Shown here one piece after another: positions 22,899 through 37,251 of a stretch of DNA of 44,714 nt (positions are counted from its first letter, which is position 1; every line of letters starts with the position of its first letter). The stretch is from positions 1 to 44,714 of IMG/VR virus record IMGVR_UViG_3300028595_000022; one strand, given 5' to 3'. A model generated the notes under the pieces. It saw nothing but the letters and a program-made list of their open reading frames with translations, was not told where the DNA came from and did no database searches. The translations under genes were made by a program, and so were the position numbers. Source of the stretch: a virus.

Positions 22899-23246
22899 TT
22901 AAAAATTATATGATAAATAAGCTCAATTCTCATTGTCTTCCAAAACCTCACAACTACATAATCCAAACGCTATTATTAATTCTTCAGCCAACATCTCACA
23001 ACTTGTATTATTTAATTCCAAAGGTTTACAATATCATTCTGTTAAATATTTTTCTATCTCTCTTTTTAATTTTATAATCTCTATATCTCTATCATGATGC
23101 GTAACTACCTTTTTACATTTGATATAAAATATATGTCTATGGTCATTTTTTAAAAAACTAACCTCATCTATATCACATCATTCTCGTTTATGTATTCACT
23201 CCATTTGTAATTTTACCACAATACAACTCTTCATTACTATACTCAT
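22899..23246 (-). CDS. Conserved small protein beside deazaguanine genes
   Basis: 115 aa. Contains VVKLQMEGIHKREGCDIDEV, SFLKNDHRHIFYIKC and VVTHHDRDIEIIKLKREIEK; the paired His-rich motifs DHRH and THHDRD recall a family of phage proteins that often sits near nucleotide-modification genes. An ATG at 23234 is an alternative start; 23246 overlaps the queE stop and is preferred. Function unknown. Confidence 0.72.
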
Positions 23247-23866
23247 CTTTTGTTATTAAAATATAAAATATGTAACCTAGGACTAAATCTTACTTTATGG
23301 TTTAAACATAGTTCTATTATATGATATAACCTTAATTGTTCATCCCTTGTTTTTCATTTAGGCATTAAATAAACAAAACTTCTTGGTATCGCGTTATCCC
23401 TACAAAATTTCATAACCTCTTCAACATCCTTTTCATTTCATACCACAAATTTAAATATTGTTCTTCAAAAATTAATGTTTCCAAAATTAGCTAATTCATA
23501 ATTATTTCAACTATTACTTAACTTAGGACTTATATTTATTTGGTCATATATAGGTTTTAATTCTATTGTTCAATTTGTTTCTATCTCAAAAAAATATCAC
23601 GGTAGGTCTTTTCTTAACTGACTAATTATTCATTGTTTCAAAGCTGGTTCTCATCAAGTAAATACTATATGATTACAATTGTAATTTCTTATCTCACTTA
23701 ATATCTCAGGCAATGTCATAATATCTCATTCTGTTTTAGCGTACTCTGTATCACAAAATTTACAATTTAAATTACATCAATGAAACCTTACGAATATTAC
23801 TGGTCTTCATATACTTGGTCATTCTCATTGTATTCAATAAAATATTTCTGTTATTTTTGCTTTCAT
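23237..23866 (-). CDS. queE: 7-carboxy-7-deazaguanine synthase
   Basis: 209 aa radical-SAM enzyme converting 6-carboxytetrahydropterin to 7-carboxy-7-deazaguanine. Landmarks: EIFYGIQGEGPSIGRPVIFV, the [4Fe-4S] cluster loop FHGCNLNCKFCDT, HIVFTGGEPAL, FEIETNGTIEL, INISPKLS and a C-terminal RLHILYFNNKRGV. Every conserved Gly of these motifs is UGA or GGN as the family requires. Intact, unlike its two pathway neighbours upstream. Confidence 0.95.
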
Positions 23867-23871
23867 ATTTT

Positions 23872-24726
23872 TTATATTAAATTAAACAATTCTTGTCTCG
23901 CTTTTGAATCCTCCCTAAATGTTCATCTCAAATCACTTGTCTTCATTATAGCTTCCTTCTTTTGTACTCATCTACTAGTCATACAAAAATGCTGTCATTC
24001 TAATATCACAGCTACTGAGATTGGATTTAATAAATATTCTATCTCATCAGCCACTTGTTTTGCTAATCTCTCCTGGTTTTGTAATCTCCTAGCATAATGG
24101 TCTAATATCCTTGCTAATTTACTTATTCATATTATCCTTTCTTTTGGTATATAATATATGTGACCCTTTCCAAAAAAAGGCAACATATGATGTTCACAAG
24201 TTGAATAAAATTCTATATTACTTAATCATACCACCTGACTTATATTACTTTCATTCTCAAAAGTTGTTATACCTAATTCTTCCTTATATCATCAATATAT
24301 TGTTTCAAAACTTTTTTTAATTCTCTTAGGTGTATCAATCAATCATTCTCTATTTGTATCATCTCATGTATATTGTAATATTCTTAATATATGGTCTTCA
24401 ATATCTTTCTCTTTTTCAAACGGTATATTTATCCATCAATCAATAATTTTATGTGTATAATCTATTTCAGGACTTCAAGGTTTTCAATATAAAGCTATTT
24501 TAATTCATTTTTTAAATTTACTCATAGTCTTTCAACTATCTATTATATTATCTAATATTATTGTATCATCTGTTATATCCTCCTCTTGATAAATTATTTC
24601 ATGTCAATAATCATACAACATCAAAGCACATATTAATCAATTCTTTGGTATTTAATAAATAAGACTCCTTGAATATTTTTTATTTATATACTCTCATAAA
24701 TTTCTTAAATCTTTATAAAAATTCAT
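23872..24726 (-). pseudogene. folE: PRTase-GTP cyclohydrolase I fusion with an in-frame UAA
   Basis: One frame of 285 codons broken once, by TAA at 24652-24654. N-terminal part: MNFYKDLRNLGEYINKKYSR then SLIY-stop-IPKNGLICALML, and TIILDNIIDSGKTM, the PRPP loop of type I phosphoribosyltransferases. The stop stands where PRTases have Gly (G-I-P), i.e. one transition from UGA. C-terminal part is a full Fol[41 protein letters not shown] (zinc ligands), GQHFCMTSRGV, TSDLRGTFRED. FolE could still be made by reinitiation at the ATG after SGKT; otherwise the fusion is dead or read through. Confidence 0.8.
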
Positions 24727-31282: not shown

Positions 31283-32410
31283 CTAATTAAAAGATTTTAT
31301 TTGTTTTTTCTCCTGTTCAATTATATTTCATTTTGCTCTTTGAATTAATTCATTTAAATTATAAAATATTTTTTTAGGGCTCGTTATCTTATGACAAAAA
31401 TATTGGTCATCCTTTATTATATTTAAAAGTTGGTCTAAATAAATATCAAAATCATACTTTCAAGATTTAATAACATCTATCTTCAGTAACTTCCTATATA
31501 AATTCCGTGCGTAGTTTCATACTTCTTTATTAGTTCAATCAATAATTCAATTATTATACTTAGCTATAACTTTTTTTATTTTATTTGTATTAGGATTTCA
31601 ATATTCTTTTTTTTCTGGAACTTGTTCAATAATATCTTTAGATTTATAATATATAGGATTCATATTTTTTTTATTTTCTTCATATTTTGTTTTATTAAAA
31701 ACTACTTCCTTAAATAATTCATAATCTTTTTTCTTTTTTCATTTTAAAGGATATTTTTCAAAAAATGGAATTACAAATTCTTTCATATTTTTTAATCATT
31801 GTATCTTTAATTGTTTTTGTCTTTCAGTTGGTATATTATAAATATTTCAAACTCAAATAGTTTTTTTAATTAATTTTAAAATTTTTTCATCATCTTCTCT
31901 TAATTTTATAGATAAATTATATATTAAATTTCAATTAGAATTTTTAAATAAATAAAAACATCATTCTCAATCTATAAATCAAGATACATACATTCAATCC
32001 GAAGGATTGTCTAATAATTTATTATTAGATATTATATTCTCTTTATCTTTTTCTTTCTCTTTATCTTTTTCTTTCTCTTTATCTTTTTCTTTCTCTTTTT
32101 CTTTCTCTTTATCTTTTTCTTTCTCTTTAGGTCATATTTTGGTTACGTTTTGGTTACTCTTTGGTTCTATTTTGGTTCTGTTTTGCTTTTTTTGTCAATT
32201 TATATATCTCTTATTATTGGCATCTAATTGTGGTTTAATTAAAACAAACATTGACTTAGCAATATTATCTTCTGTTTCTAAAATCTCTCATTCAATTCAA
32301 TAAAAACTAATCATATCGTATAGAATTAATCTACTTTCATTAGGTAGATTTTTTGATGCTTCATAAAAACTTTTATAAAAAACAAATCAATCTCTTTTTA
32401 TTCTTTCCAT
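31283..32410 (-). CDS. Replication-organiser-like protein with embedded LAGLIDADG domain
   Basis: 375 aa. Residues about 1-85 resemble DUF6291-type replication proteins: FVFYKSFYEASKNLPNESRL, LYDMISFYGIEGE, SMFVLIKPQLDANNKRYING. A Lys/Glu/Asp repeat linker follows, then a LAGLIDADG homing-endonuclease segment (MYVSGFIDGEGCFYLFKNSN, KLREDDEKILKLIKKTIG, VIPFFEKYPLKGKKKKDYEL, about residues 130-245), then a helical C-domain (GNYARNLYRKLLKID). No intein splice residues are seen. First gene of the minus early operon, behind the structured leader. Confidence 0.78.
32038..32129 (-). repeat. Microsatellite coding a KEKEKDKE linker
   Basis: About 90 bases of near-perfect tandem CTTTATCTTTTTCTTTCT-type units (18 bp), read on the minus strand as Lys-Glu-Lys-Asp repeats. 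It forms the flexible linker between the N-domain and the LAGLIDADG segment and is prone to copy-number slippage. Confidence 0.85.
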
Positions 32411-32429
32411 AATATTTTTTGAATAAATA

Positions 32430-32496
32430 AAAACACTGGGCAGTCCGGCGAAGGTGAACCCAGTGTTTTCAAGTCGCCGAACTTTTAATCACTGGA
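32430..32496 (-). promoter_or_regulatory. Structured leader RNA: pseudoknot/attenuator candidate
   Basis: In the 5' untranslated region of the replication gene (minus strand). Arms, plus coordinates: AAAACACTGGG (32430-32440) pairs with CCCAGTGTTTT (32459-32469), followed on the minus strand by a U-rich tract. The loop sequence TCCGGCGA (32444-32451) pairs with TCGCCGAA (32474-32481), making an H-type pseudoknot. CACTGGA (32490-32496) is a second copy of the arm and competes for CCCAGTG. These alternatives look like terminator versus antiterminator forms. GC-rich against an AT-rich background. Confidence 0.72.
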
Positions 32497-32505
32497 ATTA
32501 TTTCA

Positions 32506-32533
32506 TATATAATTATATATTTTCAAAAATCAA
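32506..32533 (-). promoter_or_regulatory. Promoter of the replication operon
   Basis: Minus strand: -35 TTGATT (32533-32528), 16-bp spacer, -10 TATATA (32511-32506). Transcription would begin near 32499, just before the structured leader, so that all its arms are in the RNA. Confidence 0.78.
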
Positions 32534-32540
32534 GAGTTTT

Positions 32541-32815
32541 CTAATTATCTAATATTTCATCAATGTAACTCTGGTCTATCTTATAAGGCTCGTCAGTAAA
32601 CTTTTCTAAGGATTTGATTAATTCAGTATAATAGTGAATCCAAAACTCTACTCAACTACCATAATTTCATTCATGTTCTTGTTGTCGTTTTTTCATTTGA
32701 TTAATTACAATTCTGATTTTTCTCATTTTAAAAAAGACAATAAAATAAAAATGATTTACCCCATCGTCCTCTTCAGTTTTGTAAAAAAATATCTTAATAC
32801 TTCATATATAATCAT
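32541..32815 (-). CDS. Early ORF needing a -1 frameshift at an A/T homopolymer
   Basis: ATG at 32815 opens MIIYEVLRYFFT and stops after 19 codons. From the run of seven (plus A at 32783-32789; minus TTT TTT then AC) the -1 frame continues YKTEEDDGVNHFYFIVFFKM, then GVEFWIHYYTELIKSLEKFT and ends YIDEILDN at TAG 32541-32543. The joined product would be 91 aa. Either programmed frameshifting, a homopolymer sequencing error, or a shorter gene starting at the internal ATG. Confidence 0.5.
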
Positions 32816-36651: not shown

Positions 36652-37251
36652 TTAAGTATTAAAATATTTTCGTATATAATTTCATGCTGTTTTACGTTTT
36701 CAATTACAACATTTCCATAAACTAGATAAATCTATTTTTAAATTTCTTCTTATATCCATCATTGAATCTCGTATTTTAATTAATTTTCATTCTCTAGTAT
36801 ATTGATTAATTTTTATAGATTGTGGATTTAATTTTCATCTTTTTCATAATCGAGTTCATTTTCTTCAAAGTTTTTTAAAACTGTATTTTACATTTTCTTG
36901 ATGAGTACACCATTCTAAATTTTCTATTCTATTATTTCATTTGTTTCAATCTTTATGATTTATACATGGTTTATTTTCTTTATTTTTTATAAATGTTTGT
37001 CATACCAATCTGTGTACTAATCTAGGATATTTTTTTCAATTTTTATATAATATAACTTTATAATATAAATCTGGAGTTCTTCATGGTTTTAATAATCTTG
37101 TATTAGTTCAATTCCGTTTTATTAAACTTTTAATACTTCAAACTTTATTACATTGATATAATCATTCAAATAAAGGTATATCTTTCCATTTTATTCATTT
37201 ACATTTTTTAGAGATTTTATTTTTAGTTTCTTCTGTATGTTTTCATATCAT
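36652..37251 (-). CDS. HNH homing endonuclease (NUMOD4-HNH-NUMOD1)
   Basis: 199 aa free-standing endonuclease. Domains in order: NUMOD4 (WKDIPLFEGLYQCNKVGSIK), HNH_3 (LVHRLVGQTFIKNKENKPC, INHKDGNKGNNRIENLEWC) and NUMOD1 (INQYTREGKLIKIRDSMMDI, KCCNGKRKTAGNYIRKYF). Catalytic His and Asn are present. Inserted between two fibre genes; not needed for the virion. Start ATG 37251 chosen because the next ATG is out of frame. Confidence 0.92.

Follow-up and report, generated by a model that had tools for sequence, protein, structure and literature searches.

Leaders that choose between alternative folds decide whether rep is transcribed in the plasmids pIP501 and pT181, where the attenuators of the Rep mRNA use a counter-transcribed antisense RNA made from a convergent promoter. 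In the C4 antisense RNA of phages P1 and P7 (RF01695), which acts on translation of the antirepressor, variable complementary arms define the specificity. The IncI/IncB repZ leader (PK-repZ, RF01087) places a pseudoknot before a replication gene and controls translation, not termination, and riboswitch leaders with a pseudoknot and a terminator are two-state elements in which a long-range helix competes with the terminator. The way in which phages time or limit their entry into replication has mostly been described in terms of proteins. In phage P4, an RNA derived from the leader blocks the replication genes by premature termination of transcription (PMC4825925). IsrK of Gifsy-1 has been grouped with this CI RNA as structural kin.

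Here we analyse a compact RNA design in the leader of a gene of a 44.7 kb, AT-rich virus genome (44,714 nt; IMG/VR record IMGVR_UViG_3300028595_000022), the whole of which is referred to as the window. As in the seqA-seqB immunity of P4 (PMC4825925), an untranslated phage leader contains two complementary segments, here a and a', ahead of replication genes (a replication operon in the relatives), with premature transcription termination as the predicted outcome. It differs from P4 in that the 3' segment, a', is located inside the loop of a terminator hairpin, in that neither the window nor ten phages of the leader family A2 (see below) have a third, seqC-like site, and in that no integrase was found, leaving the temperate character of the P4 system unmatched, with the reservation that A2 records may be incomplete. 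Alternative leader folds are shared with pIP501 and pT181, but no counter-transcribed antisense RNA has been identified here; variable complementary arms are shared with C4 RNA, but without an Rfam match to the window or its relatives; a pseudoknot leader before a replication gene is shared with PK-repZ, but the window scores only 18 bits where the cut-off is 44. The two-state design of terminator and competing long-range helix is that of riboswitches, whereas no aptamer-like core is conserved between families here and the long-range helix is hypervariable. No Rfam family (C4, isrK, PK-repZ, preQ1 and others) exceeded its gathering cut-off for the leader of the window or those of its relatives; the sole Rfam match, DUF805b in locus L174, lies about 900 nt away from the leader. 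A type III toxin-antitoxin RNA was considered and rejected, the element being a single unit rather than tandem pseudoknot repeats and the downstream DUF6291/LAGLIDADG gene not being ToxN-like.

Structure of the leader and the gene it precedes

The GC-rich leader (minus strand, 32496-32422) is located between a co-directional small ORF (32726-32541) and a 375-aa gene (Table 1). Its elements follow each other in the order z, a, c, a', c', U-tract and ATG, the RNA reading UCCAGUG (z)-AUUAAA-AGUUCGGCGA (a)-CUUGAAAA-CACUGGG (c)-UUCACCU-UCGCCGGACU (a')-G-CCCAGUG (c')-UUUUUAUUUAUU; after 12 more nt comes the AUG. The sequence-only reading had described a promoter, related arms and a U-rich tract before the ATG. 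All these elements are present on the minus strand, the evidence for the promoter being suggestive only, since promoter-like matches to the consensus around the leader are about as frequent as in shuffled sequences. An TTATATATGAA box occurs twice on the minus strand of the window, before the leader (32502-32512) and before the small upstream ORF (32801-32811), and is a candidate for a phage promoter motif of the host group. The GC-richness noted earlier was confirmed: the 71-nt core contains 46% GC compared to 26% for the genome, placing it among the top 0.2% of segments of its size. The third arm, CCAGTG, did not hold up as a general feature; arm z was not seen in relatives, and CCAGTG is rare in the window. 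The P1 hairpins around arm a are stronger in the relatives than in the window.

Table 1. Positions of the leader elements and of the controlled gene in the window.
Feature	Positions	Strand	Basis or remark
Promoter-like TTGATT-16 nt-TATATA	32506-32533	minus	Sequence; predicted start near 32499, uncertain
Arm z, UCCAGUG	32490-32496	minus	Partners c in the earliest nascent fold (MFE, first 44-54 nt)
Small, weak P1-like hairpin AAGU-UCGGCG-ACUU, displaying arm a	32471-32484	minus	Sequence; similar hairpin in MFE
Arm a, AGUUCGGCGA, 5' side of the 10-bp long-range helix (antiterminator or kissing contact)	32474-32483	minus	
Arm c, AAAACACUGGG, 5' side of the terminator stem	32459-32469 (CACUGGG 32465-32459)	minus	
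Arm a', UCGCCGGACU, 3' side of the long-range helix, within the terminator loop	32442-32451	minus	
Arm c', CCCAGUGUUUU, 3' side of the terminator stem	32430-32440 (CCCAGUG 32440-32434)	minus	
U-rich tract of the intrinsic terminator	32422-32433	minus	Sequence
Controlled gene, 375 aa (TGA=Gly), DUF6291 N-terminal domain and LAGLIDADG_1	31283-32410	minus	Profile match

Only with TGA decoded as glycine (code 25) do long ORFs open in the window. Phages of Absconditabacteria and Gracilibacteria use TGA in this way (PMC10746230), and codon use and promoter boxes lead us to infer that the host probably belongs to one of these two groups. In the protein encoded downstream of the leader, the DUF6291 domain (PF19808, 1.6e-14) is followed by a K/E-rich repeat linker (tandem repeat 32037-32129), the LAGLIDADG_1 domain and a C-terminal part; the LAGLIDADG_1 domain may be an in-frame insertion akin to a homing endonuclease or an intein. 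The designation of the gene as a replication gene is an inference, resting on DUF6291 holding the slot of O-like initiators ahead of DnaB in related operons. DUF6291 is thus probably a replication initiator or helicase loader, and the window gene a probable initiator or organiser of replication; the contexts of the leader point to a replication role for this uncharacterised domain.

Predicted folding

When successive lengths of the transcript were folded, three structures replaced each other: z:c (-12.4) at 44-54 nt, a:a' (-18.0) at 58-66 nt, with arm c trapped in the loop, and the terminator c:c' (-22.9) from 70 nt. The pairings had been proposed to be mutually exclusive, and the computed folding of the growing transcript bears this out. 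The predicted order, z:c to a:a' to c:c', is the folding order of an antiterminator/terminator attenuator, with the proviso that a:a' might persist as a kissing or loop contact beside the terminator rather than oppose it. For the window, a representative of family A2 and eight of ten inspected relatives, a:a' is the minimum free energy fold of the nascent RNA and the terminator that of the full-length RNA; these ten relatives had been selected for having the long-range helix.

The pairing between loop and tail had been noted as 8 bp long; it exists, and extends over ten contiguous pairs, of which one is G-U, with a stacking energy of -19.4 kcal/mol. Dinucleotide shuffling of the upstream strand gave a helix of this strength in only 2 of 5000 cases (p ~4e-4), GC-matched shuffling in 8 of 5000, and among about 135 terminator-like stems on both strands of the whole window, the next-best long-range helix reaches only -11.2. 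The 81-nt leader as a whole has an MFE z-score of -3.3, with none of 200 shuffles as good. There are no further copies of arms a and a' in the window.

Leaders with the same layout in other phages

No direct sequence homologue of the leader was found, hence no covariation supports the window sequence itself. A blastn search of INPHARED with the leader returned weak AT-rich matches only, and the full-length replication protein three remote relatives only, all without a leader. Exact-arm scans of IMG/VR DNA were discarded, one giving, among the matches listed, a flood of plain inverted repeats and others chance matches within GC-rich genes, as was a TGA-glycine-specific DUF6291 pattern, whose one match was a chance one in an SbcC-like gene. 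The DUF6291 genes of Riemerella phages have no convincing leader. As a terminase-based search recovered no sister phages, relatives were sought via the N-terminal DUF6291 domain, yielding 42 loci and then 80 viral and 25 genomic ones.

Many of these loci contain a promoter box, a hairpin with arm a, a terminator hairpin with arm a', a U-tract and an ATG within 12-30 nt. Despite this common layout the leader sequences are unrelated between loci, as are their arms: GGUAACGUU/AACGUUACC in L150, GUAACGUUG/UAACGUUGC in L145, GCGGCCAC/GUGGCCGC in L178 and UGGCCUUGG/CCAAGGCCA in L160. The long-range helix of L158, which also uses TGA for glycine, is 13 bp long. A joint descriptor of hairpin, long-range helix and terminator (total <= -41, a:a' <= -10) was met by 15 of 125 DUF6291 upstream regions, where shuffles predict 0.1, and by 2 of 505 upstream regions of other genes on the same contigs, one of these genes being itself a DUF6291 homologue. 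Some of the 15 leaders are near-duplicates; counting weaker but inspected cases, there are about ten sequence-unrelated leaders or phage lineages. The element is missing from most DUF6291 upstream regions (about 100 of 125). That the layout recurs in unrelated phages, heading replication operons, is new.

At 2845-2950 of L158, a second pairing from upstream to the loop (AATACAAT/ATTGTATT) is present besides the 13-bp one, so that three helices are interleaved.

Covariation in family A2

In a pattern scan, 22 leaders of one alignable family were identified, the 19 distinct ones forming alignment A2. Its structure consists of P1, the terminator, P3 and the long-range helix a:a', and 99.8% of the cells pair. 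The eight pairs of the long-range helix comprise 152 cells, every one of them Watson-Crick, without a single G-U, and four pairs have changed on both sides; when the partners are slid by 1-3 columns, pairing drops to 28-43%. A fully paired helix with changes on both sides implies that the RNAs of A2 do form the long-range pairing, and in this one family we regard the helix as proven by covariation, which is a new point. The expectation of compensatory changes is therefore fulfilled in leaders that share both the layout and the class of gene; direct homologues, of which none were found, do not contribute to this. Two G-U pairs of the terminator stem never vary, and exactly there the strand also fits a local GCCC/GGGC hairpin, which is what an arm with dual use would show; in the window, arm z could play the role of this local hairpin. 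The window itself was rejected as a member of A2, its best score against covariance model R1 being 2.5 bits with filters off, which means that it is linked to A2 by layout and gene context, not by sequence.

Each A2 phage has a single copy of the leader, co-directional with the replication operon. Downstream genes are an O-like initiator followed by DnaB, or DUF6291 followed by DnaB or another protein; behind other A2 leaders, the gene encodes a C5-methyltransferase or an HNH protein. The head of the same operon can be taken by either DUF6291 or an O-like initiator, often followed by DnaB (for example L298, L308, L316 and L318). From codon use and promoter boxes, some phages with this design are probably phages of Bacteroidota; the A2 model found no match in 296 Bacteroidota genomes and eight others, in a search without a positive control. 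The RNA design thus spans a phage using TGA for glycine and phages probably of Bacteroidota, and stays while the initiator protein is exchanged. By eye, no conserved upstream ORF, as in ribosome-mediated attenuation, was noticed in A2.

The A2 arms fall into six alleles, all Watson-Crick, and allele GTCGAAGC occurs on divergent leaders. Leaders L298 and L300 share 99% identity outside the arms, yet differ at two of the eight positions of each arm, fully compensated, and L309 and L314 show 6% differences outside the arms against three of eight positions in them. The sample consists of 19 leaders only, not all independent, and overall the linker and P3 vary as well, so that the pattern comes from close pairs, without a formal selection test. 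In these pairs, the arms appear to evolve like specificity alleles, which is again new. This suggests recognition between RNAs, in trans, of which no effect has been measured; the nearest precedent for such allele-like arms would be the CI-RNA immunity of phage P4. Should the arms act in trans, they would constitute an RNA-only self-recognition system for replication control.

Proposed mechanism and alternatives

We think it probable that the leader is a transcription attenuator heading a phage replication gene; the switching is computed only, and there are no transcript, termination or expression data. An attenuator needs an intrinsic terminator in the leader of the controlled gene, which c:c' and the U-tract provide (32469-32422, with the ATG at 32410), and an exclusive fold trapping a terminator arm, which is met by prediction and by the a:a' covariation in A2. 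RNA polymerase would start just upstream, and arm a would first pair with a', forming an antiterminator that traps c; after synthesis of c', c:c' could form the terminator 12-23 nt upstream of the start codon. The balance between the folds would set how much transcription enters the replication gene, with a:a' as the inferred permissive state, and termination would yield an RNA of about 70-80 nt as a by-product. As for the signal, the leading candidate would be a second RNA, which might be a leader terminated on a sister genome or a co-infecting one. The attenuator proposed in the sequence-only reading is thus supported by the predicted folds and has good comparative support from the recurrence of the layout and the covariation in A2, regulated readthrough being only inferred; a riboswitch in the strict, ligand-binding sense is unsupported, no aptamer-like sequence being conserved across leaders.

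Control in trans, as in P4, would refine the attenuator reading and remains a tentative possibility: arm a or a' of a terminated leader would pair with nascent leaders and cause termination, serving copy-number control or superinfection specificity, with the arm alleles as specificity groups. Arms whose rate of change far exceeds that of the remaining A2 leader, the same allele on divergent leaders and the absence of G-U from 152 cells of six alleles would all fit. Against it, the phage genomes lack a third copy of the arms (no enrichment of a third target site in ten A2 phages), and only 19 partly non-independent leaders are available. Furthermore, neither an integrase nor a resolvase was found in the window phage (no PF00589 above cut-off, no PF00239) or in the near-complete or larger A2 contigs, which makes lysogenic immunity unlikely. 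On a broader scale, and as a less likely possibility, the leaders may belong to an undescribed, widespread class of phage RNA switches in replication operons of phages with very distant hosts, recognising self by fast-evolving arms; terminated leaders of the same allele would report the number of genome copies, or the presence of a co-infecting sister phage, and hold back the replication genes without lysogeny or a repressor protein.

Promoter box, short structured RNA and terminator would also make a complete unit for a stand-alone small RNA with other targets, the terminator merely ending it. This seems unlikely, as the position is always directly before a replication or early gene, the phage genomes lack extra matching sites and the variable arm is tied up in pairing with its partner. 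Little credence can be given to an ordinary intrinsic terminator of the small upstream gene (32541-32726), standing by chance before the next gene: the hairpin is strong and the ORF co-directional, but the 10-bp a:a' helix, the A2 covariation, the recurrence before DUF6291 genes and the promoter boxes beside the hairpin would remain unexplained, and the gene would be silenced by a mere terminator placed 12-23 nt ahead of its start codon. That the same A2 leader, even with the same allele, precedes non-homologous O-like initiator, DUF6291, C5-methyltransferase and HNH genes speaks against autogenous binding by a single protein and makes it very improbable that the DUF6291 protein represses itself through its structured leader, as T4 gp32 does with a pseudoknot, even if this leader immediately precedes its gene. 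The adjoining probable initiator gene might point to a DNA-level element such as a replication origin (a cruciform or initiator site), an idea that is barely credible with a strand-specific U-tract and a nested order of arms that fit RNA, and with initiator exchange leaving the leader unchanged.

Other genes of the window

Genes for a QueE-like radical-SAM protein and GTP cyclohydrolase I lie side by side on the minus strand (23237-24624), next to a possible QueD-like gene without a Pfam match; the pair suggests 7-deazaguanine synthesis, as in phage DNA modification. Amid the tail-region genes, an HNH_3 endonuclease gene (36652-37251, minus strand) likely encodes a free-standing homing endonuclease.
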